The translations under genes and the position numbers were made by a program. From positions 46,349-110,348 of the forward strand of contig PFDP01000012.1 in NCBI GenBank assembly GCA_002772535.1: a DNA stretch of 64,000 nt. The letters are read 5' to 3'. Below are positions 7,391-61,226 of this stretch, in pieces; within the stretch, counting starts at the first letter, position 1, and the number at the start of each line of letters is the position of its first letter. The DNA comes from Candidatus Peregrinibacteria bacterium CG10_big_fil_rev_8_21_14_0_10_36_19. Lineage in GTDB: Bacteria; Patescibacteriota; Gracilibacteria; UBA1369; LOWO2-01-FULL-3. The notes below the pieces were generated by a model. The model worked only from the letters and a program-made list of their open reading frames with translations. It made no database searches and was not told the DNA's origin.

Positions 7391-9760
7391 ATGTTTAAGA
7401 AATTTTTGGCTAAGTTGGCTCTAGTAGCCGTAATAATGACTTCAGTTGCGAATGTATCTTTTGCAGCTGATCCTTTTGAAGTAAAGGAGTTTAAAGCTGT
7501 TTCGAGCTTAGATACTGCGTCAACAATTATTGACCCATCTCCAAAAGGGAAAAATGAGGATTTGTTGATCAAAGTGCTACTTGATAAAAGCGCTGGAATT
7601 TTGAGAGTTAATATCAAAAATGATAAGAGTCGTCTGCTTCAAACTTTAAGCTTTGATGGTAAATCTGAAATTAACTATATCTGGAATCCAATTAATGATT
7701 CACAAATTTTAGAACCGGGTATCTATACAGCTGAGCTTTTGATGAGAGAAAATTCTTCATCTACTGAAATTACGAAATCTATTAATTTTGAAGTGAGGTA
7801 TCAAGATTCAAGTAAGCCTGATTTTTCTAATTTTTTGGTATCAAAAAATTCTTTTGATCCAGACACCGAAGATTTAACAATTAAGTTTAGGAATAATAAT
7901 AGTGCAAATCTGGTTGCGGAAGTTCGTCGTGAAAATGGAGATGTTGCAAAAACCTTTTCACAATTTAGCGGACAAGGTTTTGGAACTGGTGATAGAGAAA
8001 TTGTTTGGGATGGCCGCAAAAATGATGGTCACAAAGCTGAAGAAGGTAAATATCTAATTACTGTAGTTGGAAGAAATGATTATGGTTCTTCAAAGTTAGT
8101 GTCTCAAGTAACTGTTGATAATTCTGGAGGTGTTGTAACTACAAGTAACACTCATATTTCTGGCATAACAATTAAGCCAAGTGGAACCTTTAAGCCTGAA
8201 AATGATGAGGAAATTGAGATTGAATTTGATGTAGTAACAGACTTAGACGAGCTAGTAATAAATGCAAAAAGAGGATCTGTTGTTTATGAAATTCAAAATT
8301 ATGGATCTATTGATAAAGAAAATAATGTAACTGAAATGTGGAATGGAGAAATTGACGATGGATATGCATTACCTGGAACATGGACAATTGAATTCAAAAG
8401 TAAAAAAGGTACGGTATCACTTACTGCAAGCAAAACTGTTGAAATAGAATATGATAAACCAAGCATTGACGAGTTCTTACTATCAAAAAATGAATTTGAT
8501 ACTGATCTTGATGAAGTTAATACAGTTCTTTTTGTTTTGGATGATAATGCAACTGTTACAATTGAAATCATTGAAAATGGTAAAGTTGAAGATACTATTG
8601 TTGAAGAATGGGATGTAGAAAGAGGAAAATGGTACGCATTTGAATGGGATGGAAACGGGTACGACCCTGGAGATGATATAGATTTGAGACTTAAAGCTGC
8701 AAATCTTGTAAATGAAGATGTTTTTAACACTAAAACTATTAATGTTAATTTGAGAGAGGATTCAACCTCTAGTAATCGTTCAAATGTTACTAACGATTAT
8801 ATTAGCCCAGGAGCAACTGATGGATATGAAGATATGACTATTTTCTACACAATAGATCAAGATGCTGATGTTTCTGTAACTATTTTAAAAGGTGACAGAA
8901 GTTCTGGTTCTAAGATTGTTCAATTGATGGATGGAAAATCTCAAAGCGAAGGCTCACATTCAATTGTATGGAATGGTCGTGATGGGAGCGGTAATAAATT
9001 AGCGAACGGTTTTTACACATACAAAATTGAATCAAAATATAAAGGTACAGATACAGAGTACGGAATCTTTGTAGTTGGCAAAGTTGGAGAGGCTGATAAA
9101 ACTACGACATCAAGTACGAAAAACGTGAAGAAGAATGATGGAAAGGTTAATTCAAATGTTATTGTGGATGGTCAAAAAATAGATAGAAATACTGTTTCTG
9201 AGGATAAGTGCGGTGGATACGCAGACATAAATGAAACAGATAATAGCTGTGATTATATTACTTGGGTGACTGATAACGGCATATTTAAAGGATATAGTGA
9301 TAATACATTTAGACCATATCAAACAATTAATAGAGTTGAGGCTCTTAAAGTTATTATTGAGGCTGTGGGGCTAAGTTCATACGGAAGTAATAATGAAAAT
9401 CCTAATGGCTTTAAGGATATTAAACTTGGTCAATGGTATGTAAATTACATTAATACTGCTAAGAATCTTGGAATTTTTAACGGAGATGGTAATGCCAAGA
9501 CAGCTAGACCATCTGACACTGTGAGTCGTATTGAAGCCCTGAAACTTATATTTGAAACTCTAAGAGTTAAAAAAGGCATGCAGTTAAATAACTGTTCTCA
9601 ATCATATAATGATGTGGCAGCTGGAGCTTGGTATAACAAATATGCCTGCTCTGCTAAAACTTACCAATTATATAATACGAGCATTCTACAGCCAGAATCA
9701 CTAATAACTAGAGGCGAAGTTGCTGAGCTTTTGTATGAATTAAGAGACTTTGTAAAATAA
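7391..9760 (+). CDS. secreted surface protein: FlgD-like repeats plus three SLH domains
   Basis: A 789-residue exported protein. Residues 1-25 form a signal peptide ending SFA before AD. The body holds about five FlgD-like Ig modules, each recognised by a WDG/WNG turn followed by G-x-Y (IVWDGRKNDG; TEMWNGEIDDGY; FEWDGNGYDPG; IVWNGRDGSG). The C-terminus (about 610-789) has three S-layer homology domains, for example GIFKGYSDNTFRP, FKDIKLGQWY and the TRGEVAELLY ending. SLH domains bind cell-wall polysaccharide, so this is a wall-attached structural or adhesive protein. A paralogue with the same plan follows 58 nt downstream, sharing the NVTNDY-x-SP motif. Candidate S-layer component. Confidence 0.9.
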   Translation: MFKKFLAKLALVAVIMTSVANVSFAADPFEVKEFKAVSSLDTASTIIDPSPKGKNEDLLIKVLLDKSAGILRVNIKNDKSRLLQTLSFDGKSEINYIWNPINDSQILEPGIYTAELLMRENSSSTEITKSINFEVRYQDSSKPDFSNFLVSKNSFDPDTEDLTIKFRNNNSANLVAEVRRENGDVAKTFSQFSGQGFGTGDREIVWDGRKNDGHKAEEGKYLITVVGRNDYGSSKLVSQVTVDNSGGVVTTSNTHISGITIKPSGTFKPENDEEIEIEFDVVTDLDELVINAKRGSVVYEIQNYGSIDKENNVTEMWNGEIDDGYALPGTWTIEFKSKKGTVSLTASKTVEIEYDKPSIDEFLLSKNEFDTDLDEVNTVLFVLDDNATVTIEIIENGKVEDTIVEEWDVERGKWYAFEWDGNGYDPGDDIDLRLKAANLVNEDVFNTKTINVNLREDSTSSNRSNVTNDYISPGATDGYEDMTIFYTIDQDADVSVTILKGDRSSGSKIVQLMDGKSQSEGSHSIVWNGRDGSGNKLANGFYTYKIESKYKGTDTEYGIFVVGKVGEADKTTTSSTKNVKKNDGKVNSNVIVDGQKIDRNTVSEDKCGGYADINETDNSCDYITWVTDNGIFKGYSDNTFRPYQTINRVEALKVIIEAVGLSSYGSNNENPNGFKDIKLGQWYVNYINTAKNLGIFNGDGNAKTARPSDTVSRIEALKLIFETLRVKKGMQLNNCSQSYNDVAAGAWYNKYACSAKTYQLYNTSILQPESLITRGEVAELLYELRDFVK

Positions 9761-9818: not shown

Positions 9819-11930
9819 ATGCTGAAGAAATTTATATCATTGATGGCAATTGTAATGGTGATGGCAACAACTACTGTTGCGAACGCTGCTTTTGATCCAA
9901 ATGCTCCTCATGTTGTGAGCGCAAATCTAACTAAAGAAACTTTAAATCCCCTAGCTGGAGAAAGTACAATCCTACAGTTTAGTGTTGATAAAGATGCATT
10001 TGTAATTGTGCAAGTAAGAAATTACTTAGGACAAACTGTAAAGTCTTTCTCATCATTCAACGGTAATGATTACTACCTTAAAAATACTACACAAACATTA
10101 GTATGGGATGGTACTGATGATTATGGAACTGTTGTAGAAAATGCAACATATAAGATGTTTATAATTGCAAAAAGCGGTACAAGCGAAACAATTGATAACG
10201 AATCTGTAACGATTGAATCAAAGTATGTTGGAGGCAGTACTAGCGGATCTGCAAATAGCACAACTGGTGGCACAAACAATTCAAATCCAGTTACAAACAG
10301 TATTCAAACTTCAGGACCTGGTGCAGTAAGCCTAGGTGCTATTGAAGATTTCACAATTAATCCAAGCGGAAGTTGGGACCCAACAGATGATCTATTAGAT
10401 ATCGAATTTGAGTTGAACAAAGATGTTAATTATCTATATGTAGAGGCTGTTTCTGGAAGCAAACATGTAGAAATTATTGATGACGAATATGCTGACGAGG
10501 ATAGCTATGAAGAAAGTTGGGATGGTACTGATGATGATGGTGATTACATCAAACCTGGAGTTTGGGAAATCATTGTACGTGCAGATGGAGACAAAATTTC
10601 TAAAACTATCAATGTACAATACGAAAAACCGTCAATCACAGAGGCATTCGTAACAAAAAACTCATTTGATCCAGAAGAAAATGAAAAAATGAGCCTTGTG
10701 TTCAAAGTTGATACTACATCACTTGTAACAATTGAAGTTTACAATGGTACTAAGCGTGAAGAAAGACTTTGGGATGAAGTTTCAACATCTAAAAATAAAT
10801 GGTACGTAGTTGAATGGGATGGTACTGATGATGAAGGTGATACAGTAAACGAAGGTAAAGACTGGTCATTCAAAATTTACTCACAAAACACAGTTGCGGA
10901 TAAGGTTCTTGATACTAAATCTGTAAGCTTTGAAGTAAAGGAAGATACTGTTTCAAGTAGTAAAACTGTAAATGTTACTAACGACTATATGTCTCCTGTT
11001 GTATATGAGAAAACAACTAAGAGTGTAACTTTTGGATATTGTCTAGATGATGAAGCAGATGTTTACCTAGCTGTTTATGAAGGTAAAAACGCGAGTGGAA
11101 AACCTGAAGCGGAACTACTTGATTATGTTTCACAATCTAGCGGATGTCATAAAGTTGAGTGGAATGGTGAAGACGACAAGGGTAAAACCCTTAGTAAAGG
11201 AGTGTACTCATATAAAGTAATAAGCAAAAACGGTAGCAGCAAAGATACTGAAGAAGGTGTGTTCGTTGTTGGAACTGCTGGTGATAGCAATTCAAACGAT
11301 AATGATAATGATGATGATGATTACGACTACACTTACGACTGTTCAGACTACTACTATGACACAGCATCAATTGCAAAATATGATACAGAAATGTGCCAAG
11401 CAATAACTTGGGTAACAGAGAATGGAGTGTTTAGTGGATACTCAAATGGAAACTTTGGAGCAAATGCAACAATCAACCGTGCAGAGTTCCTAAAAGTGCT
11501 ACTTGATTCATACGGATTACAAACATTTGGATTCGACGGTTCAAACGCTGGATTCAAAGATGTAAGCCCATACGAATGGTATATGCCTTACGTTATCACA
11601 GCAAAATTCTACGGAATCTTTGATGGATATCCAGATAAAACTGCAAGACTTACAAATACAATTAACAGAGCAGAATTAATGAAGATTGTTGTTGAAACTG
11701 ATTCTACGCTTGGTTATGGAAACTTAGCATCTTATGCAGGATCTTATGGTCAAACATACAAAGATGTTCCAGCCAACGCATGGTTTAAACAATATGCAGA
11801 TGTTAATTTTAATCTTTCACTTCTAAACAGTAAGAGCAACTACAATGGTTTCTCTTTCATGCCAGAAGCGAAAGTAACAAGAGGTGAAGTGGCCCTTCTA
11901 CTTTACCGTAAAGCAAGCTTCGGCTTCTAA
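9819..11930 (+). CDS. secreted surface protein paralogue: FlgD-like repeats plus three SLH domains
   Basis: A 703-residue exported protein with a signal peptide (residues 1-23, ending ANA before AF). Four FlgD-like modules carry near-identical turns (WDGTDDYG, WDGTDDDG, WDGTDDEG, WNGEDDKG); the acidic turns could bind calcium, which is inference. An Asp/Asn-rich linker near residue 490-510 precedes three C-terminal SLH domains (GVFSGYSNGNFG, FKDVSPYEWY, TRGEVALLLY). Same layout as the upstream protein but with more regular repeats and a stronger promoter, so this may be the main S-layer subunit. It ends before a clear terminator. Confidence 0.9.
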   Translation: MLKKFISLMAIVMVMATTTVANAAFDPNAPHVVSANLTKETLNPLAGESTILQFSVDKDAFVIVQVRNYLGQTVKSFSSFNGNDYYLKNTTQTLVWDGTDDYGTVVENATYKMFIIAKSGTSETIDNESVTIESKYVGGSTSGSANSTTGGTNNSNPVTNSIQTSGPGAVSLGAIEDFTINPSGSWDPTDDLLDIEFELNKDVNYLYVEAVSGSKHVEIIDDEYADEDSYEESWDGTDDDGDYIKPGVWEIIVRADGDKISKTINVQYEKPSITEAFVTKNSFDPEENEKMSLVFKVDTTSLVTIEVYNGTKREERLWDEVSTSKNKWYVVEWDGTDDEGDTVNEGKDWSFKIYSQNTVADKVLDTKSVSFEVKEDTVSSSKTVNVTNDYMSPVVYEKTTKSVTFGYCLDDEADVYLAVYEGKNASGKPEAELLDYVSQSSGCHKVEWNGEDDKGKTLSKGVYSYKVISKNGSSKDTEEGVFVVGTAGDSNSNDNDNDDDDYDYTYDCSDYYYDTASIAKYDTEMCQAITWVTENGVFSGYSNGNFGANATINRAEFLKVLLDSYGLQTFGFDGSNAGFKDVSPYEWYMPYVITAKFYGIFDGYPDKTARLTNTINRAELMKIVVETDSTLGYGNLASYAGSYGQTYKDVPANAWFKQYADVNFNLSLLNSKSNYNGFSFMPEAKVTRGEVALLLYRKASFGF

Positions 11931-17736: not shown

Positions 17737-18861
17737 GTGAAAGAATTAACATGGGTAGAAGTCTCGAAAGAGGCTTTAAGGCACAACATTGGAGAGTTTA
17801 GAAAAATCGTTGGAAAGGATGTGATTTTGTGTCCATGTGTAAAGGCAAATGCTTACGGACATGGACTAATTGAAACTGGGAAAGTTTTTTTGGAGAGTGG
17901 TGCGGATTGGCTGGCTGTAAATTCTTTGTATGAAGCTGTATCTTTGAGGGAGGCTAAAGTAAGCTCCCCCATTTATGTGTTGGGGTATGTTCCATTGGCA
18001 GATTTAGCTATGGTGTGTGAATTGGATTTGAGAATTGTTGTTTACGACAAGGAAACTGTCGAGGAATTAGGCAAAATAGGAAAACCTGTAAAAATACATC
18101 TTAAAATTGAGACTGGTAATAATAGACAAGGTATTTTAATGGATGATCTTTTGGATTTTGCGGGATTTGTTTCTGAATTTAGCAATATTGAGATAGAGGG
18201 AGTAGCTACCCACTTTGCAAATGTGGAGGATACAACCGACCATAGCTATGCAGAAAAGCAATTGGAGAAATTTAATACGGCAATTGAAAGACTTGAAGAT
18301 GCTGGATTTAAGATTAAACTTAAGCATTGCGCAAATTCCGCTGCAACTATCCTTTTCCGGGAAACACATTTTAATATGGTAAGGCCTGGTATTGCCGCCT
18401 ATGGAATGTGGCCATCTAAGGAAACTTACATATCATACCTAAAAGATGGTGGCGAAGGGTTTAAACTGATGCCAGCGTTTACTTGGAAAACAAGAATTGC
18501 TCAAATTAAAACTGTGGCAGCTGGTGAATATATTGGATATGGATGTACTTATAAAACAGGGAGTGAGGCGCGTTTGGCGATTTTGCCTATTGGTTACTAT
18601 GATGGCTATGATCGTTGTGTACATGGGGCATATGTATTGATTAGGGGCAAACGCGCCTATGTGCGCGGCCGAGTTTGTATGAATATTATTATGGTTGATG
18701 TGAGCGATATAGATGGTGTTGAATTAGAGGATGAGGTGGTTTTAATCGGCCGCGACGGAGAAGAATTTATTAGTGCAGAGGATTTTGGAAATTTTGCTGG
18801 CACAATAAATTATGAGGTTACTACTCGTGTAAATGACAGGATTAAAAGAATTTACAATTAA
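17737..18861 (+). CDS. alr: alanine racemase
   Basis: PLP-dependent conversion of L-Ala to D-Ala for peptidoglycan. The PLP lysine is in VKANAYGHG (about residue 35), the catalytic Tyr is in GYGCTYKT (about 268), and MVRPGIAAYG is present. Length (374) is normal. The start is GTG at 17737. It is followed within 2 nt by a D,D-dipeptidase and then ddl, forming a D-alanine operon. Confidence 0.95.
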   Translation: MKELTWVEVSKEALRHNIGEFRKIVGKDVILCPCVKANAYGHGLIETGKVFLESGADWLAVNSLYEAVSLREAKVSSPIYVLGYVPLADLAMVCELDLRIVVYDKETVEELGKIGKPVKIHLKIETGNNRQGILMDDLLDFAGFVSEFSNIEIEGVATHFANVEDTTDHSYAEKQLEKFNTAIERLEDAGFKIKLKHCANSAATILFRETHFNMVRPGIAAYGMWPSKETYISYLKDGGEGFKLMPAFTWKTRIAQIKTVAAGEYIGYGCTYKTGSEARLAILPIGYYDGYDRCVHGAYVLIRGKRAYVRGRVCMNIIMVDVSDIDGVELEDEVVLIGRDGEEFISAEDFGNFAGTINYEVTTRVNDRIKRIYN

Positions 18862-18863
18862 AT

Positions 18864-19505
18864 ATGGGAATACTTGATGGTGGAGTTAGGGACATTAAAA
18901 TAAGGGATTGCGGTGAAGAAATGGTTGTTTTAGATGATAAGATATTTGTAATTGATCCACTTTATTTTCAATGGGGTTTTTCAAAAGTTCCAGAGATCAA
19001 GTTGAGAAGTGGAGTTATGGAAAAACTTATAGAGGCACAGAAAGCTTTAAACGGAATGAAATTTAAAATTTGGGATGGTTTTAGAACTATAGAAACTCAG
19101 GGGATTTTATATGAAGATTATAGGAATCGATTAAAAAGTTTGCATCCAGAGTGGAACGATGAGGAAATAAAGAAAGCTGTGGAAATTTTCGTTTCTTTTC
19201 CAAGTCATGACAAATTAAAGCCAGCACCACACAACACAGGAGGGGCTGTGGATTTAACTATTGTAGATTCAAATGGTATGGAACTAAATATGGGCACACC
19301 GTTTGATGAATTTACCGAAAGAGCATATACGAATCATTTTTCTGATGGCGAGGTTTTTAAAAACCGAATGTTACTTAAGGAAACCATGGAAAGCGTAGGT
19401 TTTGTTAATTATGAAGAGGAATGGTGGCACTTTAGTTTTGGTGATCAAATGTGGGCACATATGACTGGAGAAAGTGAAGCAATATATGGTAGCATCGAGT
19501 TATGA
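18864..19505 (+). CDS. VanX-type D-alanyl-D-alanine dipeptidase
   Basis: A 213-residue zinc peptidase of the VanX/DdpX (M15D) family, cleaving free D-Ala-D-Ala. The zinc and catalytic residues appear intact: PHNTGGAVDLT (His and Asp ligands) near residue 122 and EEWWHF (catalytic Glu, His ligand) near residue 187. No signal peptide, so it acts in the cytoplasm. It sits between alr and ddl and overlaps ddl by 4 nt (ATGA), so the enzyme that destroys the dipeptide is translated with the one that makes it. It could instead recycle dipeptides taken up from host or dead cells. Confidence 0.88.
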   Translation: MGILDGGVRDIKIRDCGEEMVVLDDKIFVIDPLYFQWGFSKVPEIKLRSGVMEKLIEAQKALNGMKFKIWDGFRTIETQGILYEDYRNRLKSLHPEWNDEEIKKAVEIFVSFPSHDKLKPAPHNTGGAVDLTIVDSNGMELNMGTPFDEFTERAYTNHFSDGEVFKNRMLLKETMESVGFVNYEEEWWHFSFGDQMWAHMTGESEAIYGSIEL

Positions 19506-20599
19506 AAAAAATAGCAATTATATTTGGCGGCAAAAGTGGTGAACATGAAGTTTCTTTGGTTTCTGCTTCATCAATCGTAAAGGTTATAAATGAAAGAAGT
19601 TTTGAGGTAATTCAAATTGGAATTACGGAATCTGGGAGATGGTATACGGGCGAAAACTGTTTGGATAAATTTAAAAGCAAAAATCTGGAAGGCCTTACGG
19701 AAATTTTTATTTCAACAGATCCGGAGAGAATTGGCTTTATTCCTGAAAATGGAGGCTTTATTGCTGTGGATGTTTGTTTTCCAGTACTTCATGGCCCATT
19801 TGGGGAGGATGGAACAATTCAGGGATTGTTTGAAATGATGAATGTTCCCTATGTTGGTTGCGGAGTTTTGGCTTCGTCTACCGCAATGGATAAACTACAA
19901 TGCAAGGCAATATGGGAAGCAGCTGGATTACCTGTGGTTCCATATATTGGACTTGGGAGATCTGCCTGGGAAAAAGATAGCGAATTGGTTTTAAGAGAAG
20001 TTAAAGAAAAACTCAAACTCCCGCTTTTTGTGAAGCCAGCTAATATGGGATCCTCTGTGGGAATTACAAAGGTAAAAGAGTGGAATGATTTAAAGGCGGC
20101 AATAAATGAAGCAGCAAACTACGATAATAGAATTCTGATAGAAAATGGCTTAAATGTAAGAGAAATTGAATGTGCAATTTTAGGAAATGATGATCTGGTT
20201 GCCTCCCCTCTTGGAGAAATAATTGTTGGAGGAGAATTTTATGACTTTAATGATAAATATGTTAATGGAGTTTCAAGAAGCCAAATTCCAGCGGAGATTA
20301 GTGATGATTTGAGTAAAAGAATAAAAGAAATGTCTATCAAAGCTTACAGACTTTTAAACTGTTCTGGCCTTTCTAGAGTAGACAGTTTTATAGATAAAGA
20401 TACTGGTGATATATTCCTTAATGAGATCAATACCCTACCTGGTTTTACATCTATCAGTATGTATCCTAAAATGATGGAGGCCTATGGAATGAGTTACCAT
20501 TCTCTAATTGAAAGGCTCATTGAATTAGCATTTGAGAGGTATGAGGATAGGAAGAAAAATAGAGTAAATTTCAATAGTGGATCAGATTGGTTTGTTTAA
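19502..20599 (+). CDS. ddl: D-alanine--D-alanine ligase
   Basis: ATP-grasp enzyme making D-Ala-D-Ala. Signatures: GGKSGEHEVSLVSA at the N-terminus, HGPFGEDGTIQG, KPANMGSSVGI, and NEINTLPGFT at the C-terminus. The omega-loop has Tyr (FNDKY), as in true D-Ala-D-Ala ligases; VanA-type D-Ala-D-Lac ligases have His there. So the precursor should be the vancomycin-sensitive type despite the adjacent VanX homologue. Length (365) is normal. Confidence 0.94.
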   Translation: MKKIAIIFGGKSGEHEVSLVSASSIVKVINERSFEVIQIGITESGRWYTGENCLDKFKSKNLEGLTEIFISTDPERIGFIPENGGFIAVDVCFPVLHGPFGEDGTIQGLFEMMNVPYVGCGVLASSTAMDKLQCKAIWEAAGLPVVPYIGLGRSAWEKDSELVLREVKEKLKLPLFVKPANMGSSVGITKVKEWNDLKAAINEAANYDNRILIENGLNVREIECAILGNDDLVASPLGEIIVGGEFYDFNDKYVNGVSRSQIPAEISDDLSKRIKEMSIKAYRLLNCSGLSRVDSFIDKDTGDIFLNEINTLPGFTSISMYPKMMEAYGMSYHSLIERLIELAFERYEDRKKNRVNFNSGSDWFV

Positions 20600-20647: not shown

Positions 20648-21901
20648 ATGAGAATTTTTCGTCGAATTAAAAAGAGGTCATCAGAAGCGCATTTTTTGGC
20701 TTTGGATATTGGAACTGACTATGTAAAAGCGCTTGTTGTTGAAGCTGAGGGTAAAAAAGGTAGAGTGCTTGGAGTTGGTTCAAGAAAACAAAAACTTGGT
20801 GATATGCAAAGTGGAGTTGTTACTGATATAGCAGCTGTTATTTCTAATTGCATGTCTGCAATTAGGGATGCTGAAAATATGGCTGGGGTCTCAACAAAGA
20901 AAATGATTTTAGGTATTGCCGGCGAATTAGTAAAAGGAGCAACTAGCACTACAACTTATGTAAGGAAAGATCCAAGCAGTAAAATTGATCTTTCTGAATT
21001 AAAGAACATTGTGCATAAGATGCAATGGAAATCTTTTGATATTGTGAGGAGTCAACTTGCTCATGAAACCGGTTATAGCGAAATTGATGTAAAACTTGTA
21101 AATGCGGCGATTGTTGATGTGCGTATAGATGGATACAAAGTTACAAACCCTATTGGGTTTCAAGGAAAGGAAGTTACTTTAGGCATTTTTAATGCCTTTG
21201 CTCCTTTGGTTCATTATGGAGCATTGCAAACTATTGCTGCGGAAATCGATAGAGAGTTACTTGCGATTGCTGCTGAGCCATACGCGCTCACAAGATGTAT
21301 GGGGTATGAAGATGGAGGTCAGTTTGGTGCGATTTTTATTGATGTTGGTGCTGGAACTACAGATATAGCTATTGTAAGAAATGGCTCGTTGGATGGTACG
21401 AGAATGTTTACGCTTGGTGGTCACACTTTTACCAAGAGACTTTCACAAAGTTTAAATATCTCATTTAAGGAAGCTGAAGATATTAAATTGGCATATATAG
21501 AAGATAAGCTTGAAAGACAATCACACCGCATAGTGCGTGAAGCTATGAAAACTGATGCAGATGTTTGGCTTTCTGGTGTAATTTTAACTTTAGAAGAATT
21601 TCAGAATGTTGATGTGCTGCCTTCAAAAATTTTACTGTCTGGTGGTGGAGCACATTTGCCAGAAGTTAAAGAGGCTTTAGAAAGTAGAGAATGGTTTCAA
21701 TCTCTACCATTTGCAAAGAAGCCTCAGATTAGTTTAATGAATCCTAAGATGGTTTCAAATTTGGCAGATGAAACAAAATTACTTAAGGATCAAAGTGATA
21801 TCGTCCCTATGGCTCTCGCCAACCTCGGGCTAGAGTTTTTGGCAGAGGAGCAACTGCTTTCAAAAGTTTTGAAAAAAGTTGTTCGCCTGATGCAAATCTA
21901 A
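20648..21901 (+). CDS. FtsA/PilM-like actin-fold ATPase
   Basis: A 417-residue actin-superfamily protein. Phosphate 1 motif LALDIGTDYVKALV at residue ~17, phosphate 2 IDVGAGTTDIAI near 235, and the adenosine motif LLSGGGAHLPEV near 325. A segment 80-160 resembles the FtsA 1C/SHS2 insert. The basic C-terminal end (LSKVLKKVVRLMQI) could be an amphipathic membrane anchor as in FtsA. The next gene, 1 nt downstream, encodes a bitopic membrane protein with a large outer domain, a layout resembling PilM with PilN. Cell-division FtsA cannot be excluded; no ftsZ is in the window. Confidence 0.8.
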   Translation: MRIFRRIKKRSSEAHFLALDIGTDYVKALVVEAEGKKGRVLGVGSRKQKLGDMQSGVVTDIAAVISNCMSAIRDAENMAGVSTKKMILGIAGELVKGATSTTTYVRKDPSSKIDLSELKNIVHKMQWKSFDIVRSQLAHETGYSEIDVKLVNAAIVDVRIDGYKVTNPIGFQGKEVTLGIFNAFAPLVHYGALQTIAAEIDRELLAIAAEPYALTRCMGYEDGGQFGAIFIDVGAGTTDIAIVRNGSLDGTRMFTLGGHTFTKRLSQSLNISFKEAEDIKLAYIEDKLERQSHRIVREAMKTDADVWLSGVILTLEEFQNVDVLPSKILLSGGGAHLPEVKEALESREWFQSLPFAKKPQISLMNPKMVSNLADETKLLKDQSDIVPMALANLGLEFLAEEQLLSKVLKKVVRLMQI

Positions 21902-21902
21902 T

Positions 21903-23720
21903 ATGAATAACAATAAACAGACAAAGCAGGAAGGTGAGGTTTCGGAAGAAGCCGTATCGAAGCTGGTTCCTAAAAAACGCGTACTTTATTGCGAAATTGA
22001 TGAAGAAGTAACCGTTATTTTTGATAAGCTTAAGCACCTAAAGGATAAAAAAATATATTTTGTTGTGCCAAAAAGAGCGATACTTTTTCAAAGTGGGGTT
22101 AATTTAAAAATACTTAAGAGAAAAGCAGAAGATGTAGGTAAAACTATTTCTTTAATTACGAATGATAAAAACGGAGTATACCTTGCTCAAAAAATTGGGA
22201 TAGAGGTTTACAACAAATCTGATACAGGAAAAAATGTACTTTTTTCAACCGATGAAGATGACGATGAATTAAGAATTACACCCCTAAGGGCAACTGTGAA
22301 TTCTGTTGATGAAAAAACGCCAACACGTCTTAAAGAGCGTAAGCTTTCTATTAGCGAGATACTCACAAAAATGAAAGGCAAAAAGCCGATGACTATATCT
22401 CAAATCGAAAAAGAGAAAAGTAAAAAAGAGGAAATTAAAAAGCCAGAGCGTCCAAGGTTTGTAATTGTAAGTCCCAATAGACACGCTCTTATTGGCCTCA
22501 GTGTAGTGAGCATTTTTATCTTTCTAGTTATAGTTTATGTAGCTCTGCCAGGTGTAACAGTTTTTATTACCCCAGCAGCAAGTGTACTAGAGAAATCTAT
22601 GAATATAACTTTGGCGGACAGTGTTAAAAATAAATCGGAGTTATCTACAAGGCCAAGAAATGTAATTGCTAGTTTTCCAATTGATACAAATATTACAAAA
22701 ACAATCACTCACTATGCGACAGGTAAAAAATTCTCCGAGAGAGGTGCAAATGCTAGTGGAGTTATTACAATAACAAATAACACTCCAACTGCGTGGCCAC
22801 TTGTTGCTCAAACAAGATTTCAAACAGAAGAAGGGTTAGTGTTTAGATTGCAAGCAGGGACTACTGTACCGGCCTCCGGAGCAAATGGTCCGGGAAAAAT
22901 TGAAGCTCTTGTTGTAGCAGACATAACCGATTCATATGGCGGAATTGTTGGTGAAAGGGGCAATATTGGCCCATCTAAATTTTTCCTTCCAGGCTTAAGG
23001 GAAGATAGTAGATCAAAAATTTATGCTGAGAATGCAGCCCCTATGACAGGAGGAGTAACTGACTTTATCAGCTTTATAACTCCAGAGGATTTAGAGGCTG
23101 CAAAAAAACGCATTAATGACGAAATAATTAAAGGTGCCATTGAAGATTTGAGGGCGGCTGTAAAAAAACAGGCTGAACTTGTTGGAGAAGACCCTGATAA
23201 ATTTGTTTTATTAGAAGGAGATGGAGCTGTAAAAGTTGGGGAAGTTAAAGCACAAATACCGTCACAACTAGAAGGTAAGGAACTAAAAGAATTTCAGGTT
23301 ACAGGTCAGGTTTATGTGACAGGAGTTTACTACGATAGAAATGAAATGCTTGAAATGTTAAAGGCAGAGCTAGCTATGAAGAAGAGTCCACAAAAAGAAT
23401 TATTACGCATAAACGAAGATTCTACTTCATATAGAATATTTGAATGGGATGAGGCTAGAGGCAAAATAAAATTGACTGCAAATATCAAAGGAATAGAACA
23501 GTTTGAGATTGATGAAAATCAAGAGAATGGTGCAAGGCTTTTGCAAAAAATTAGAGATCATATTGTTGGAAAAGACATTGAAGATGCCAAATCTTATATT
23601 CAAAATCTTCCTGAGGTAAATAAAGTTGAGATCGATAGTTGGCCGGCATGGTCTCCTACTATTCCGAACATTCCAGACAATATTGAATTTGAGGTAAGGC
23701 CAGCTATTGAAGTTCAGTAA
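21903..23720 (+). CDS. bitopic envelope protein with baseplate-J-like outer domain
   Basis: A 605-residue protein. Residues 1-195 are charged and cytoplasmic, a single membrane helix (ALIGLSVVSIFIFLVIVYVA) lies about 198-218, and the remaining ~385 residues lie outside. The outer part contains a stretch I recognise from Patescibacteria proteins often named baseplate J-like: NNTPTAWPLVAQTRFQTEEG, then TVPASG, GNIGPSKFFLPGL and AAPMTGG. It is translated right after the FtsA-like ATPase (1 nt gap). I infer an ATPase-anchor pair for an envelope machine, perhaps pilus-like; the true role is unknown and no contractile-sheath genes are nearby. Confidence 0.75.
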   Translation: MNNNKQTKQEGEVSEEAVSKLVPKKRVLYCEIDEEVTVIFDKLKHLKDKKIYFVVPKRAILFQSGVNLKILKRKAEDVGKTISLITNDKNGVYLAQKIGIEVYNKSDTGKNVLFSTDEDDDELRITPLRATVNSVDEKTPTRLKERKLSISEILTKMKGKKPMTISQIEKEKSKKEEIKKPERPRFVIVSPNRHALIGLSVVSIFIFLVIVYVALPGVTVFITPAASVLEKSMNITLADSVKNKSELSTRPRNVIASFPIDTNITKTITHYATGKKFSERGANASGVITITNNTPTAWPLVAQTRFQTEEGLVFRLQAGTTVPASGANGPGKIEALVVADITDSYGGIVGERGNIGPSKFFLPGLREDSRSKIYAENAAPMTGGVTDFISFITPEDLEAAKKRINDEIIKGAIEDLRAAVKKQAELVGEDPDKFVLLEGDGAVKVGEVKAQIPSQLEGKELKEFQVTGQVYVTGVYYDRNEMLEMLKAELAMKKSPQKELLRINEDSTSYRIFEWDEARGKIKLTANIKGIEQFEIDENQENGARLLQKIRDHIVGKDIEDAKSYIQNLPEVNKVEIDSWPAWSPTIPNIPDNIEFEVRPAIEVQ

Positions 23721-23765
23721 GCGGCTATGTTAATATTGGTGAAGAAGAACTAAACTCACCTCTCT

Positions 23766-24743
23766 ATGAAACATATTACCTTCAAACATGCTCTTTTAAC
23801 TGTATCTCTTGCCGTTATTTCCGGTGTACTACTACTTGGTGTACAAGTTGCCATTGGCGCACCTAGCGTTGCCCCTCCTGGAAATGGAGTTAGCCCTACT
23901 TTTACAGGATTAGATGTAACTGGAGACGCTAGTGTAATTAAAGATTTCATTCTCACTGGCAGTATTAAGTCTCCAAACGCACAGAAAGGCACTTTGCAAA
24001 CCATGACAGTATCTATACCTCCAGTGAAGGTTTTTGGTGATTTACAACTAAATGATACTGGTAATATCGATGTAAAGGGAAATATATATAATTCAAAAAC
24101 TGGAGAAGTTAGAGTATTTGGCAATTTTCTTGGGCTAGGAGATGTAACTGCTAATAAAAATATGTTTACACAGAACCTTACTGCAACAAATGCAATTGAA
24201 GCAAAAGGTAGTATGTGGAATTATGGCGAATTATCTGTAAAAGGATCAACGGTTTTTGGTTTCGATGGACAAGATGGGAATGTAGAGATTAATTCATCTT
24301 TAGATGCTACACCTGCTTTGGATAATGTACCATTTTATGTTCACAATACTACGACAGGGAAAGGGATTGGGATAGATTCAAATGAAATTATGAGTAAAGG
24401 AGATGATCTTTGGTTAAACTGGGATTCTGGTAAAAATGTAAATATTGGTGGAGCTTCTAATGGCGGTAAAAAGGCTAATCTTACTGTTGATGGTGATTTC
24501 AAAGTTACCGGAGAATTTACAAAAGCAATCAAACAGACTCAAAGTAAAAGTGTAATTGGTGATTATGCACTAATTGCAAACTGCCCAACTGCAACACCTC
24601 ACTTAATGTCTTGTTCTCTTTATTTTGATAAGCCACAATTTGTTTCAGGTGGGTCTTTACCAATCGGCGGAAATTGTCTTGGAAGTTACTATCAAAATAG
24701 CGCTACAGCAGTTTCGGCTACTGTAACAGCGATTTGTTATTAA
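23766..24743 (+). CDS. secreted hypothetical protein, beta-repeat type
   Basis: A 325-residue protein with a hydrophobic N-terminus (residues 8-31) after two Lys/His residues, usable as a signal peptide or a membrane anchor. The rest is rich in Gly, Asn, Thr and Val with short repeated strands (GNIDVKGNIYN, GEVRVFGNF, KGSTVFGFDG), suggestive of a beta-solenoid or phage-tail/shufflon-like stalk. Two Cys pairs lie near the C-terminus. It follows the FtsA-like/baseplate-J-like pair by 45 nt and may be a surface product exported or assembled by it. No family assigned. Confidence 0.65.
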   Translation: MKHITFKHALLTVSLAVISGVLLLGVQVAIGAPSVAPPGNGVSPTFTGLDVTGDASVIKDFILTGSIKSPNAQKGTLQTMTVSIPPVKVFGDLQLNDTGNIDVKGNIYNSKTGEVRVFGNFLGLGDVTANKNMFTQNLTATNAIEAKGSMWNYGELSVKGSTVFGFDGQDGNVEINSSLDATPALDNVPFYVHNTTTGKGIGIDSNEIMSKGDDLWLNWDSGKNVNIGGASNGGKKANLTVDGDFKVTGEFTKAIKQTQSKSVIGDYALIANCPTATPHLMSCSLYFDKPQFVSGGSLPIGGNCLGSYYQNSATAVSATVTAICY

Positions 24744-26073: not shown

Positions 26074-26205
26074 GTTTTAATTGTTAGTTTTAACTCCTTG
26101 AATTCTAGCCTTCTTTAGACCTTACATCAAGAAGATTTGTAATAGAGTAAGCGCTGTTTGACTTAATAACTGTTAAAAGAGTGGCTTATTTGATATCCTT
26201 TGAAC

Positions 26206-27648
26206 ATGAAATACTTATTAGCTATTCTTGGAGTTCTACTAACTATTGGCGTTGTATTTGCTGCTCATAGTTATGGCGATGTTAATAGTGGTAAACTATA
26301 TTCTGAAGCTATTGATTTTATTACTAGTAAGGGAATTGTGCAGGGTTATCCAGATGGAACCTATCAACCAAATAGAACTTTAAATAGAGCTGAGCTTTTG
26401 AAAATTGTTGTTGAAGCGGAATATGACAATGAATTTGCAAATCATGTAGGAGAAAGTTGTTTTAAAGATGTTCCAGCAGGTGAATGGTTTTCAAAATATG
26501 TGTGTTTTGCTAAGGCTAAGAACATTGTAAAAGGTTACAGTGATGGCACTTTTAAGCCAGATCAGAAAATAAACTTTGTGGAGGCTTTAAAAATATCATT
26601 AAGCACTTTTGGTATTCAATATGATGCTCTTTATGACCCTTGGTATAAAGACATGGTTATTCAAGGTGGAAATAGAAATTTGATTCCTCTAAGTGTTAAA
26701 TATTTTGACCAGAATTTTAGTAGAGGGCAAATGGCGGAAATGATTACGAGAATTTTAAAAGAAAAAGATGGAACTTTAGCGGCTTATCTTAAAGATGATG
26801 CACATGTTAGTTATGAAAAAATGCTTGAGGCAGGAGAAAGAAAACTTGTTTTTACTAGTAACGATGGGTGTTTTGATAATCCAAATATATGTGGCGGTAG
26901 TAGTATATGTGTGCGAAATACTTGTATAGAAAAAAATGCTTTGCTCCCTAGTAATGGAGATGCTTCTGCCAAAAACTGTGCTTATGATGAAGTTTACATA
27001 AATTCTAAATGTGAAAAAGCGGCTGTAAGTGTAGCCATGGTTGCCTTTGATGATGCTGGTGGAAAAATGGATGCGTGGGTAGACAATACTGTTGGTGGAT
27101 TTGTGGCTTTGAGTGGTCTTAGTGCGTGTCCAAACAAAGTAAGAGTTTACCGTGATTATAATATGTGTTTGCCAAATGATAGTGATGTTGGAAAAGAAGT
27201 CTTTAAGAGAATTGGTGGTCCAATACAGTTTTTTATGATTGGGCAACAAGGTGATGAGTTAAAAAATTGTGAACAGGGACTTGGTTCTGAAGGAGAATAT
27301 TCTGGTTGGTTGAATATGATTAGTACTTATAGTCCTTTCACTCATGAGATGGGGCATGAGGCTGGTCTGTATGATCAATACTGTTACTTCCCTACTGATA
27401 AGAATCCAAACATTGTTAATTTTGATAGTGCTTCATGTAAAGTTCCTGATGACCAATGGCTTATTGAATATTGTGGCAGGACGGATTTGGGTGGAGATCC
27501 TGGCAATCCGTACACATGTAGTGGTGATATGAATAACTATGGTGGGCGCAGTATTATGGGTTTTGGTGATTATTCTATTTCTAGCCCGCTGACTGGATTT
27601 TCCTCTGCCGAAGAAGAATATGTAGCTGAGAAATTTCATTGTTATTAG
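26206..27648 (+). CDS. SLH-anchored secreted metalloprotease (M64/metzincin-like)
   Basis: A 480-residue exported protein. ATG 26206 gives MKYLLAILGVLLTIGVVFAA, a signal peptide; a TTG two codons upstream is less likely. Three SLH modules fill about residues 20-200 (GYPDGTYQPNRTLNRAELLK; GYSDGTFKPDQ; FSRGQMAEMI). The C-terminal half is Cys-rich and holds a zinc site HEMGHEAGLYDQYC near residue 380: HExxH with a third ligand Asp or His downstream, close to the M64 family motif (HExGH...DEY). It should be a wall-bound extracellular protease, perhaps processing surface proteins or attacking a host cell. SLH domains here are N-terminal, unlike the two structural proteins. Confidence 0.8.
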   Translation: MKYLLAILGVLLTIGVVFAAHSYGDVNSGKLYSEAIDFITSKGIVQGYPDGTYQPNRTLNRAELLKIVVEAEYDNEFANHVGESCFKDVPAGEWFSKYVCFAKAKNIVKGYSDGTFKPDQKINFVEALKISLSTFGIQYDALYDPWYKDMVIQGGNRNLIPLSVKYFDQNFSRGQMAEMITRILKEKDGTLAAYLKDDAHVSYEKMLEAGERKLVFTSNDGCFDNPNICGGSSICVRNTCIEKNALLPSNGDASAKNCAYDEVYINSKCEKAAVSVAMVAFDDAGGKMDAWVDNTVGGFVALSGLSACPNKVRVYRDYNMCLPNDSDVGKEVFKRIGGPIQFFMIGQQGDELKNCEQGLGSEGEYSGWLNMISTYSPFTHEMGHEAGLYDQYCYFPTDKNPNIVNFDSASCKVPDDQWLIEYCGRTDLGGDPGNPYTCSGDMNNYGGRSIMGFGDYSISSPLTGFSSAEEEYVAEKFHCY

Positions 27649-53910: not shown

Positions 53911-56364
53911 TTAAAAGCCAAGTGCATCTAAAACTGGCACCGCTAAATTTTGCCCCTCACCTTGAGATGGGAACACATGCATTCCTAGAGCTGGATTAAA
54001 ATTGATTTCTATAATGGAATAGTCTTTACCGTTTGTGATCATATCTACACCACAAAAAGTAGCGTCAACTGATTTTGCAGCCTTAACCGCGGCTTCTTTT
54101 AAGTGAGATGGAAAAGTTTTTGTATGATCTATGGCATCTCCACCTGTAGAAACATTTGTATTATCTCTCAAATAAACAACTTTGTTTTTCTTTGGAACAG
54201 AAGTTAGTGTTAAATTTTGAGATTTTAATTTTGCTTTCTCAATGGCGGTAACTTTAATAGGATATTCCCACTTGTTTTTGCACTGTTTGAAATCGGTATT
54301 TTTACTTTCAATGAGTTCTGAGATGGTAGATTTGCCATCGCCAGTAACATTTGCAGGGCGCCTCTCTACTACTGCTAATGCCTTACCATCAATAACTAAA
54401 ACTCTATACTCAGTACCCTCAATAAATTCTTCAATGATTACAGAAGAATCTTTTTCGAAGGCAAATTTAACAGCGTCGGTGTAAGATTTTTTGTCTTTTG
54501 GCAGCACCATTGAAACACCTATGCCAAAATTTGTGGTGTTTGGTTTGATGATTATTTTTTTGTCTTCAAATTTTTCATAATCTTCAAGCGCTGATTCTAT
54601 AGTGTTATAAAGTCCACCGGCCGGTACGCTAATTTTATTTTCATTCAGAATTATTTTTGAGATTTGTTTATCTTCCATTAAGAGATATGAAATATAAGAA
54701 TCTTTTGAAGTTTTTGTGGCTTGTTTTACATACTCAACTTTGCGTCCTTTTCTGAGTCTAATAAAGCTCGCTTTTTCATTAAGGACTTCTACCTTAATCC
54801 CCCTCTTAAGAGCCTCCTTAATAAGAATTTGTGTTGATCTTTCAAGGTTTTCATAGCCTTCTGTGGTTTGCTCACTAATCGCCTCCATTCTCTCCTTTAC
54901 CTTCAATGATGTTTGGGCTTCGATTTCAAATCGCTTAACTTGGTCGGTAGAAATTTTTAGATCTTTAAGATGCTTGTAATGTTCTTTTGAAAGATCGAGC
55001 CCAAATTGCAGGTAGCTTTTTTTGCTTTGCAAGATGGAGTTTAGAATTTGGGCGGATGGAGTTTTGTTTGGATCTTCAACTTTTTCGTACTGCTTGGTTA
55101 GAGTTTTTGTATACCGGTTGTCAGTGTTATTTTTATCTAAAATTTCTGCCGCTACTTTCATTTCATCAAGAATTTGAGTTGCCCAACTTTTGAGAGTTGT
55201 TTTTTGAGTGTCTTTGGTAAGTTGCAGATTTGGCTTTCTACCATAAAGTGCGACTTTTTCTTGGTTCATAGAATAGTCGTGTTGTCTTTTTTTACTGATT
55301 TCTCTATCGCTCTTCATTAAACAATAAAGCATGAAAGTGTGTAGGAATCTTAAATGTTCTAAGGAAACACCATTTGGAGAATTTGGATCTATATCAACAG
55401 TCCTAACTTCAATATACTGAACCCCTTTTTCTTCTAGGATGTTTAATAATTCTGATTCGGCGTCATGATTTCTTTTTGGTCGAATTACAGCGTAATACTC
55501 ATTTGGAATTTGGAGAATATGATCGTTCAAACCTTCTAGTTTGAAATATTTGCGTTTTGGAGTTGAGGTTAGGTGCCTTAAATCGCGAATGTATTCGCTA
55601 ATGTTTGAAAATGAAACAGGCCTATCTTGGCAGCAATAACCGTATTTACTCATACGAAGTGACGTTGCATATTTGCCGTAGTAAGTATCTTTCCCATGCC
55701 TGTTAAAATAAAGCAAACCTCTGTGTTCATAAGATGTATCTACAGCAGGTGAAGCCCCAAAAAGATAAATATCTAACCAGCTAATCTCAAGAAAATTTCG
55801 TATGATTTTGAAGTAGGAAGCTGTCTTAAAATCTTGTAATGACTGACCTTCTTGTGCAAATTTTTTGTACATCTTTTCCCAGAAATCATTGTTGAAAGAA
55901 AAATTATAATGAACCCCAGAAATTGTTTGCATTATGGCTCCATATCTAGCTCTTAATCCAATTCTATATTGTTCTTTTTTGTGAGCTAAATTGGAACTTC
56001 CATATTTGGCTAAAGGAATATCTTTTTCTTTAGGGAGTTTTGCTGGAGGTGAAAATGGCCAAATATTTTCGTCCTGAAGTTTTGTTATTGTGTAGTGATG
56101 TATGTCGTTCAAAAATTTCAAAGTACCTTCTTCACTTGTATAGACTGGCGTAATAAATTCTAACTGTGACTCAGAGAAATCGGTTGAAATGTGAGGATTT
56201 GTGAGTGGTGATCCTAAGACTTCAGGATGCCTAGTTTTAGCAATCCCCCCATTTTTATCTATACGAAAACACTCACGCTCAAGTGCGTGTTCGTTTTTAG
56301 CTAGTAGCTTGAAGTTGCTATTTTTAAGCAACCATTCCTCTATTTGTTTATTTGAGTAGATCAA
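53911..56364 (-). CDS. gshF: bifunctional glutamate-cysteine ligase/glutathione synthetase
   Basis: An 817-residue fusion making glutathione from Glu, Cys and Gly. Residues ~1-520 are an E. coli GshA-type ligase (ERECFRIDKNGG, HPEVLGSPLTNPHISTDFSE, LEFITPV). Residues ~545-817 are an ATP-grasp domain (IIIKPNTTNFGIGVS, EEFIEGTEYRVLVIDG, VNVTGDGKSTI-like ANVTGDGKSTISEL, EINFNPALG). This is the GshF architecture of Pasteurella and streptococci. Glutathione synthesis is unusual for a reduced Patescibacteria-type genome. Overlaps grxC by 17 nt and is 26 nt before bolA. Confidence 0.95.
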   Translation of the reverse strand: MIYSNKQIEEWLLKNSNFKLLAKNEHALERECFRIDKNGGIAKTRHPEVLGSPLTNPHISTDFSESQLEFITPVYTSEEGTLKFLNDIHHYTITKLQDENIWPFSPPAKLPKEKDIPLAKYGSSNLAHKKEQYRIGLRARYGAIMQTISGVHYNFSFNNDFWEKMYKKFAQEGQSLQDFKTASYFKIIRNFLEISWLDIYLFGASPAVDTSYEHRGLLYFNRHGKDTYYGKYATSLRMSKYGYCCQDRPVSFSNISEYIRDLRHLTSTPKRKYFKLEGLNDHILQIPNEYYAVIRPKRNHDAESELLNILEEKGVQYIEVRTVDIDPNSPNGVSLEHLRFLHTFMLYCLMKSDREISKKRQHDYSMNQEKVALYGRKPNLQLTKDTQKTTLKSWATQILDEMKVAAEILDKNNTDNRYTKTLTKQYEKVEDPNKTPSAQILNSILQSKKSYLQFGLDLSKEHYKHLKDLKISTDQVKRFEIEAQTSLKVKERMEAISEQTTEGYENLERSTQILIKEALKRGIKVEVLNEKASFIRLRKGRKVEYVKQATKTSKDSYISYLLMEDKQISKIILNENKISVPAGGLYNTIESALEDYEKFEDKKIIIKPNTTNFGIGVSMVLPKDKKSYTDAVKFAFEKDSSVIIEEFIEGTEYRVLVIDGKALAVVERRPANVTGDGKSTISELIESKNTDFKQCKNKWEYPIKVTAIEKAKLKSQNLTLTSVPKKNKVVYLRDNTNVSTGGDAIDHTKTFPSHLKEAAVKAAKSVDATFCGVDMITNGKDYSIIEINFNPALGMHVFPSQGEGQNLAVPVLDALGF

Positions 56365-59519: not shown

Positions 59520-61226
59520 TTAATCTTCTTTATATGGATAGAGTTTTCTTGGGGCGGTTATGTATTTGGACATGAGGAGGTTGTCTTTTACTGTGCCGTC
59601 GTTTTCGGTGATTTTTTGAATCCAGGCTATTTCATTCCAATTTGGGTTGGCGATTGATTTGAGATTCTCCGGAACGCGTCCAGCATAAAGTGGGCCTATC
59701 AGTTCTACAGATTTGTAAATTGGCTGGCCGTAGAGCTCTACGTAGGCATCGTCACCATCATTGTATGCCTGAATGAAGAGATAATTTTCAGTATTGTTGC
59801 GAAATCTTAGATCTTTTGATCCAGGATAAATTGCAGCATCTAGTCCGTTACCAAACTCTTCGTAATAAAGAATGTAAAGGGTGTGATTGGATTTTTCCAA
59901 TATTTCTAAGCCCGCTCCAACTAGGGCGCGGTAGAGAGTTGTAGAGACTTGGCAAAGACCACCGCCGGGTACTGGAATTAAATCTTGGCCACCAAAAATT
60001 GCTAAAGATTGCTCCCAACCATTAGCACGGTTGATTTCACCTAATGTTGAATTAAAGGAATATTCTTGATCTGGTTTTAATAAAATATTGTGTACTTTTT
60101 CACTAACTCCTTTACGTATGTTGTATTTTCGACCAAATCCCGATTTTGCAAAACTGGAGCGTCCTTGAGAAAGTTTTTGTAGTGGGCCTAAATCCACACC
60201 TGTTTCATTAATTACTTTCGAAGGAGAGGTTGTTATTACTATCTCTGTGGTGTCGAGCCCGTTCTTGATGTTTTTAATAAATGCCTCGGCTGTGGATTTG
60301 TAATCTATGTGGCGGCCATCGACAGCATGGCCTTCTGTTTGAGCGTATAGTTCTCCTTCTTTTGGTAGAGCTTTTATTGTGAGGTTTGTGGCTTCCCTTT
60401 CGATGGCCGCCGAAACATCTTGCTCAAGATGTTTTTTTAGCTCGTTTTCATTAACAGTAAATTCACCGTTTTTTACTTTTACGGCATATGGAGGAATGAA
60501 AAATTTGTATGTGTATTGGTTCTCAATGGTTTCCGTATATGTGAGAGTGTGTTTATGTTTTAGAAGTGACTTTAACTTCTCTGCATCACTTTCTGCTGAT
60601 TCTGTATTATAAAATGCTTTTGTTTCGGTGGTGGAAATTTGTATGTCCTGATTTCCGTATATTAGAGCCTTAGTAATTTGGGATTTGAGATCTGCTAGGT
60701 TTGGCTCTTTTCCATCAATATGCGTTTGAAGTGAAATGTTGCCATTGGTATCAACCTGTACTTGAGCATCCTTTGAAACAACTATATTTGGAAAATATTG
60801 TTCTAATTTTGTATTGAGAATGGCTGAGTCTACCTCAATGATTGGGGGTAATTTTTGAGTGATGAATAAACTAGTAAGTCTTTGACCCCAGTGCTTTATG
60901 AGTGAATTTGTGGCTGAAATAGTTTTGATGTCGGAAATGGTTTTTTGTGAATTGAAGGTGAAGCCGAGCTCTGAAGGAGCGAGGCTTATTGTTATATCTT
61001 TGTAGGTGAAGTTTAGAGGTTGGGATAGGGCTTTGGAATAATAATTTACTAGTTCTTTTTCTGCATCGTCGTAAGTGGAGCTTTGGATTTCTAAATCACC
61101 TATCATTACATCTGTTGTGATAGTGTTTGCGGCGGATTGTTTAAAAGAAAAAAGGAGTACAAAGAAAAGAACCACTAAAGCAATGGTCATTTTTTGATTC
61201 CAACTATTATCCTTATTTTTTGACAT
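59520..61226 (-). CDS. VanW-family exported protein
   Basis: A 568-residue protein with an N-terminal membrane anchor (about 12-32). Residues ~40-330 contain two YoaR-like putative peptidoglycan-binding (PG_binding_4) stretches, and ~340-510 the VanW domain (GFGRKYNIRKGVSEKVHNIL, PGGGLCQVSTTLYRALVGAG, SNHTLY). VanW proteins are associated with glycopeptide resistance operons and sporulating bacteria but their activity is unknown. Occurrence with a VanX homologue and ddl in the same window is notable. The gene directly adjoins xth. Confidence 0.9.
   Translation of the reverse strand: MSKNKDNSWNQKMTIALVVLFFVLLFSFKQSAANTITTDVMIGDLEIQSSTYDDAEKELVNYYSKALSQPLNFTYKDITISLAPSELGFTFNSQKTISDIKTISATNSLIKHWGQRLTSLFITQKLPPIIEVDSAILNTKLEQYFPNIVVSKDAQVQVDTNGNISLQTHIDGKEPNLADLKSQITKALIYGNQDIQISTTETKAFYNTESAESDAEKLKSLLKHKHTLTYTETIENQYTYKFFIPPYAVKVKNGEFTVNENELKKHLEQDVSAAIEREATNLTIKALPKEGELYAQTEGHAVDGRHIDYKSTAEAFIKNIKNGLDTTEIVITTSPSKVINETGVDLGPLQKLSQGRSSFAKSGFGRKYNIRKGVSEKVHNILLKPDQEYSFNSTLGEINRANGWEQSLAIFGGQDLIPVPGGGLCQVSTTLYRALVGAGLEILEKSNHTLYILYYEEFGNGLDAAIYPGSKDLRFRNNTENYLFIQAYNDGDDAYVELYGQPIYKSVELIGPLYAGRVPENLKSIANPNWNEIAWIQKITENDGTVKDNLLMSKYITAPRKLYPYKED

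Follow-up and report, generated by a model that had tools for sequence, protein, structure and literature searches.

A second FtsA-like ATPase and its dedicated bitopic partner: a conserved gene pair of Patescibacteria with a putative role in peptidoglycan growth

In a 64,000-nucleotide stretch of the genome of Candidatus Peregrinibacteria bacterium CG10_big_fil_rev_8_21_14_0_10_36_19 (contig PFDP01000012.1, positions 46,349 to 110,348; hereafter the window), a gene for an FtsA-family actin-like ATPase, named FtsA2 here, is followed after 1 nt by the gene for a membrane protein with a single transmembrane helix, its bitopic partner. We favour, with slightly better than even confidence, the reading that both belong to a phylum-wide module for peptidoglycan growth, in which a non-divisome FtsA paralogue acts on a dedicated bitopic protein in the manner of FtsA-FtsN and PilM-PilN. 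The pairing of the two genes, the folds of their products, the split of FtsA2 from FtsA and PilM, the cell-wall context of the genes and their independence from MreB and PilM are established here. Patescibacteria, tiny and for the most part uncultured, represent a large share of bacterial diversity, many of them lack MreB, and the building and shaping of their walls is almost unstudied; a second FtsA that is nearly universal among them and has its own transmembrane partner is a concrete candidate for such a role, and would constitute the third ATPase-bitopic pair of the FtsA/PilM type, after the two named above. No description of the pair was found in the searchable literature, which leaves out many subscription papers, and it is apparently undescribed in the literature searched.

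Results

The ATPase matched the Pfam FtsA family (E 5e-18) and, weakly, PilM_2 (29.8 bits, cut-off 27), and it carries recognisable phosphate-1 (LDIGTDYVKAL), phosphate-2 (IDVGAGTTDIAIV) and adenosine (ILLSGGGAHLP) motifs. Its predicted structure (mean predicted local distance difference test score, pLDDT, 88) had FtsA as its top match (7q6f; Z 36.9, 354 residues, 2.8 Å), followed by PilM (Z 31.1) and MreB (Z ~23), and the alignment to FtsA revealed an actin-like fold with the IC subdomain. Conservation of this subdomain was raised in FtsA2 but equally so in canonical FtsA, and hence uninformative. The amphipathic C-terminal helix is conserved throughout the family (mean best hydrophobic moment 0.76 vs 0.49 in shuffled sequences), and is a putative membrane-targeting element of the FtsA type.

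Despite this likeness, the window protein scored 114.2 bits on the NCBIfam FtsA equivalog TIGR01174, under its cut-off of 175.85, and distant FtsA2 members scored 105–108 bits, whereas canonical FtsA proteins of the same phylum, encoded directly upstream of FtsZ in relatives, reached 379–387 bits. It was also below the cut-offs of NCBIfam pilM (42.9 bits vs 133) and Pfam MreB_Mbl (26.9 bits vs 27, residues 224–273 only). In a maximum-likelihood tree, FtsA, including that of E. coli, formed a clade with 100/100 support and PilM another with 97/90 support, with FtsA2 outside both; the divergent homologues L051 and L052 stood on very long branches, and their position in the tree is unsure. FtsZ and canonical FtsA are near-universal in the sampled Patescibacteria, and relatives carry ftsA and ftsZ side by side, away from FtsA2, as in genome G005, a single contig, where FtsA-FtsZ lies at ~231–233 kb and FtsA2-partner at ~512–515 kb. 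In none of the loci read was FtsA2 beside ftsZ. Judged from sequence, FtsA2 thus appears to be a paralogue of FtsA and not the FtsA of the divisome.

Neither canonical ftsA nor ftsZ was detected in the window's own assembly. We considered whether FtsA2 could be the ordinary FtsA of this organism, and rejected it: relatives have a separate ftsA-ftsZ, and FtsZ is absent from this assembly as well. Because FtsZ is missing too and the two genes are paired elsewhere in relatives, their absence is probably a single assembly gap.

The predicted structure of the partner (pLDDT 81) comprises a cytoplasmic alpha/beta domain, a disordered linker, the transmembrane helix and an ectodomain. The cytoplasmic domain is STAS-like (vs 1vc1, Z 7.5 across 83 residues). 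In the ectodomain, a beta domain of ~100 residues matched residues 148–257 of Streptomyces GlxA (Z 13.2, 22% identity), which is likewise membrane-anchored and functions in tip glycan deposition (PMC4736821); the match covers this one GlxA domain and not the whole oxidase. The first-pass annotation, made from the window's sequence, had noticed baseplate-J-like strings in this protein, and the ectodomain does match the fold of baseplate-J proteins from Mu, P1, phiCD508 and diffocin (Z ~10). Given a whole-chain root-mean-square deviation of ~25 Å and a different arrangement of the domains, the term would apply, according to the model, only as a statement about fold. No Pfam or NCBIfam family, baseplate-J included, covered the partner in library scans; SPOR and POTRA domains were not found by Pfam scan or structure matches, and comparison of its sequence with solved structures gave nothing credible.

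Of 380 Patescibacteria genomes, 356 gave a partner-profile match and 371 an ATPase-profile match; the ATPase figure includes cross-hits to PilM, MreB and FtsA. Among the matches listed, 77 genomes had both genes, which were adjacent on one strand in 70, ~3 kb apart in 3 and on different contigs in 4. Adjacency in 70 of 77 genomes is far above chance. Within the window's order the two genes stood next to each other in each of the 20 neighbourhoods read, at spacings from -23 to +88 nt; the ATPase of L052, one of the 20, is very divergent. A genome-contig scan for spread beyond Patescibacteria covered the nearest 80 loci, nearly all from Peregrinibacteria. The earlier proposal that an FtsA-like cytoplasmic ATPase works with a bitopic membrane protein, for which co-occurrence across the candidate phyla radiation had been suggested as a check, is supported, and so is its specificity to these bacteria as far as tested.

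Separate PilM genes are present where pili are found, and five genomes with the pair (G005, G036, G042, G082 and G131) have no PilM beyond weak FtsA-type cross-hits. Of the 150 genomes that match FtsA2 most strongly, 62 lack MreB, as do all 37 genomes sampled from the Peregrinibacteria class, when a best MreB-model E of ~1e-5 to 1e-19 is read as absence and one of 1e-50 to 1e-148 as true MreB. From the genomes that keep the pair without PilM, and from those that keep it without MreB, it follows that the pair depends on neither. Whole lineages of Patescibacteria lack MreB, including families f29, f44, f54, f32 and others. The Peregrinibacteria-class genomes tested have one SEDS (FtsW/RodA) gene or none.

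The N-terminal domain of the partner was present in 58/58 proteins encoded next to a recognised FtsA2, and in 4/20 partners without FtsA2. At the alaS-rpsM site, ATPase and domain were either both kept (L084, L100 and L102) or both lost (L132, L134, L135, L139 and L143). This sequence pattern suggests that the domain is coupled to FtsA2, with a contribution from paralogy of the partner, since short paralogues consisting of the ectodomain alone exist. In L136 (5338–6567) and in the matching gene of L137, a phosphoglucose-isomerase-like gene occupies the place of FtsA2 between alaS and the partner, which retains its N-terminal domain.

Gene context was read in 40 distant ATPase loci from about as many families. 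The gene just upstream of the ATPase was alaS in most of them, and the partner was followed by ruvX in 30 and by mltG in 29; in 6 the run extended to mreB and mreC, and to PBP2 where the contig reached, giving the order alaS-ATPase-partner-ruvX-mltG(-mreB-mreC-PBP2). In relatives of the class without FtsA2 the partner lies beside pgk and DUF218; DUF218 (ElyC/SanA family) also adjoins the partner in the loci of family f18, and in genome G288 the sole FtsW/RodA gene overlaps the partner's end. The cell wall is the common thread of these neighbours, partly through the old alaS-ruvX-mltG neighbourhood. In the neighbourhoods scanned, where annotation was only partial, no pil genes (PilN/O/B/C) were recognised near the pair. 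Phage tail genes were not seen beside it, the neighbours being housekeeping genes.

The third gene of the locus encodes a protein with a signal-peptide-like start. Of 21 loci from the window's order, 13 have related secreted proteins near the pair, on either strand; outside the order, the neighbourhoods read had proS or ruvX beside the pair and no member of this family, and a second copy of the gene was not found in the window's genome. It is an optional, lineage-specific neighbour and not a core part. The earlier grouping of the three genes stands for ATPase and partner, which are neighbours in relatives, and fails for the third gene as an obligate member.

At the locus itself (Table 1), the three open reading frames (ORFs) lie where the first-pass annotation had placed them. 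Three genes precede them on the same strand, with gaps along alr, the VanX-type dipeptidase gene, ddl and FtsA2 of 2, -4 and 48 nt, and the gene after the third ORF is convergent. A promoter/terminator scan gave signals not clearly above those of shuffled sequences. The dipeptidase gene between alr and ddl makes for an odd mix of D-Ala-D-Ala synthesis and cleavage, an arrangement also kept in some relatives (L033, L036).

Table 1. Features of the FtsA2-partner locus, in window coordinates
Feature	Coordinates	Strand	Basis or remark
Alanine racemase (alr)	17737..18861	+	Named from sequence; clustered with relatives; co-directional, upstream
D-Ala-D-Ala dipeptidase, VanX-type (Peptidase_M15)	18864..19505	+	Pfam
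D-Ala-D-Ala ligase (ddl)	19502..20599	+	Named from sequence; 48 nt upstream of FtsA2
FtsA2, FtsA-family actin-like ATPase, 417 aa	20648..21901	+	Pfam/NCBIfam, structure, tree
FtsA2 IC subdomain, residues ~85-175	20900..21172	+	Model aligned full length to FtsA
FtsA2 C-terminal amphipathic helix, residues 403-416, SKVLKKVVRLMQ	21854..21895	+	Family-wide conservation, hydrophobic moment
Bitopic partner protein, 605 aa, single transmembrane helix	21903..23720	+	ORF and predicted structure
Partner N-terminal cytoplasmic alpha/beta domain, STAS-like, residues 22-105	21966..22217	+	Structure match
Partner predicted disordered cytoplasmic linker	22218..22478	+	KKLSISE-type short motif, kept in Peregrinibacteria
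Partner transmembrane helix, residues 193-214	22479..22544	+	Predicted structure
Partner baseplate-J/GlxA-like beta domain, residues 281-384	22743..23054	+	Structure match
Secreted protein, lineage-specific optional neighbour, 325 aa	23766..24743	+	Neighbourhood comparison

Discussion

In the mechanism that we propose, FtsA2 would be tethered to the cytoplasmic side of the membrane by the amphipathic helix at its C-terminus, would probably polymerise, and would bind the STAS-like cytoplasmic domain of the partner. We infer this binding because the layout equals that of FtsA-FtsN and PilM-PilN, where the bitopic protein binds with its cytoplasmic end in the IA-IC cleft of an IC-containing, actin-like ATPase (PMC7613929). 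The partner would cross the membrane and display its baseplate-J-like beta domains outside, where the ectodomain may position or regulate peptidoglycan synthesis or trimming (FtsW/RodA, PBP2, MltG).

With the divisome pair, FtsA2 and its partner share a full-length FtsA fold with IC domain, a C-terminal amphipathic helix and a bitopic protein whose N-terminus is cytoplasmic (PMC7613929); unlike divisome FtsA, FtsA2 is under the equivalog cut-off, lies outside the FtsA clade and occurs in genomes that also encode a canonical FtsA next to FtsZ, and unlike FtsN the partner has a folded cytoplasmic domain and a baseplate-J-like ectodomain. PilM-PilN offers the same direct succession of an IC-containing ATPase and a bitopic protein, together with the weak PilM_2 match, but FtsA2 falls outside the PilM clade and occurs in genomes without detectable PilM. 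The MreB-RodZ/MreBCD elongasome likewise combines an actin-like cytoskeleton with a bitopic protein in a setting of wall growth, and sometimes shares an operon with the pair (mreB-mreC-PBP2); FtsA2 differs from MreB in its FtsA-type IC domain and in being kept where MreB is absent. It is conceivable, although we hold it as rather doubtful, that the pair constitutes an actin-like cytoskeletal machine of its own, which guides wall growth and replaces MreB in the many Patescibacteria lineages without it, among them all sampled Peregrinibacteria.

Several observations weigh against a module for peptidoglycan growth. Other bacteria, too, have alaS-ruvX-mltG as an old cluster of housekeeping genes, so that gene context may overstate the link to the wall, and in other lineages the pair precedes rpsM-rpsK-rpsD-rpoA or proS. 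Several lineages keep the partner without FtsA2, and the joint loss of N-terminal domain and ATPase, consistent in direction on the tree, comprises 2 independent pairs on supported branches and is not significant. Family f28 lacks both FtsA2 and partner, yet has FtsZ, MltG and SEDS; the idea that the pair goes missing along with the wall was rejected on this account, and presence/absence profiles do not settle the function.

An unlikely alternative, somewhat less so than those that follow, is that FtsA2 is a divisome accessory working at the septum with FtsZ and canonical FtsA, with the partner as functional counterpart of FtsN or FtsQ. The FtsA fold and membrane helix, the near-universal FtsZ and canonical FtsA, the retention of the pair in MreB-less genomes and the ddl-FtsA2 order, which resembles E. 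coli ddlB-ftsQ-ftsA, speak for it; the distance from ftsZ in the loci read, morphogenesis neighbours that are mltG, mreB, mreC and PBP2, and a partner in which SPOR and POTRA were not found speak against it. The surface appendage of the first-pass annotation, pilus-like or for host attachment, could draw on the PilM-PilN parallel (PMC7613929), on the secreted protein that follows the pair in part of the window's order and on the host-attached life of cultivated Patescibacteria. We regard it as improbable in view of the context from alaS to ruvX-mltG(-mreBC-PBP2), the pair's presence where PilM is lacking, the lack of recognised pil genes in the partly annotated neighbourhoods and a secreted gene that is optional and unlinked beyond the order.

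A shade more improbable still is that the ectodomain arranges S-layer or secreted proteins, for instance the product of the third gene, instead of peptidoglycan: the secreted family near the pair and proteins with S-layer homology (SLH) domains close by in the window would fit, but this linkage is limited to one order and the pair is phylum-wide, with proS or housekeeping genes elsewhere. That the pair is left over from a phage tail or contractile-injection system that became domesticated seems very improbable. The ectodomain shares the beta-domain fold of baseplate J (Mu gp47, T4 gp6 class), whereas the architecture with one transmembrane helix, the lack of a Pfam baseplate-J hit, the housekeeping neighbours with no further tail genes beside the pair, and the vertical, phylum-wide pairing all point away from phage.

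Other features of the window

Three surface proteins with SLH domains are encoded at 7391–9760, 9819–11930 and 26200–27648; two of them have FlgD-like Ig domains and the third (26200–27648) a metalloprotease-like HEMGH motif. A VanW protein with a putative peptidoglycan-binding domain lies at 59520–61226. The NhaB Na+/H+ antiporter gene at 458–2179 (E 4e-208) is located in a GC-rich island (0.55–0.60 vs 0.31–0.37 further on), which suggests a recent transfer or a chimeric stretch of the contig. Finally, a fused glutamate-cysteine ligase/ATP-grasp protein (GshF-like), unusual in a reduced genome, is encoded at 53911–56364.

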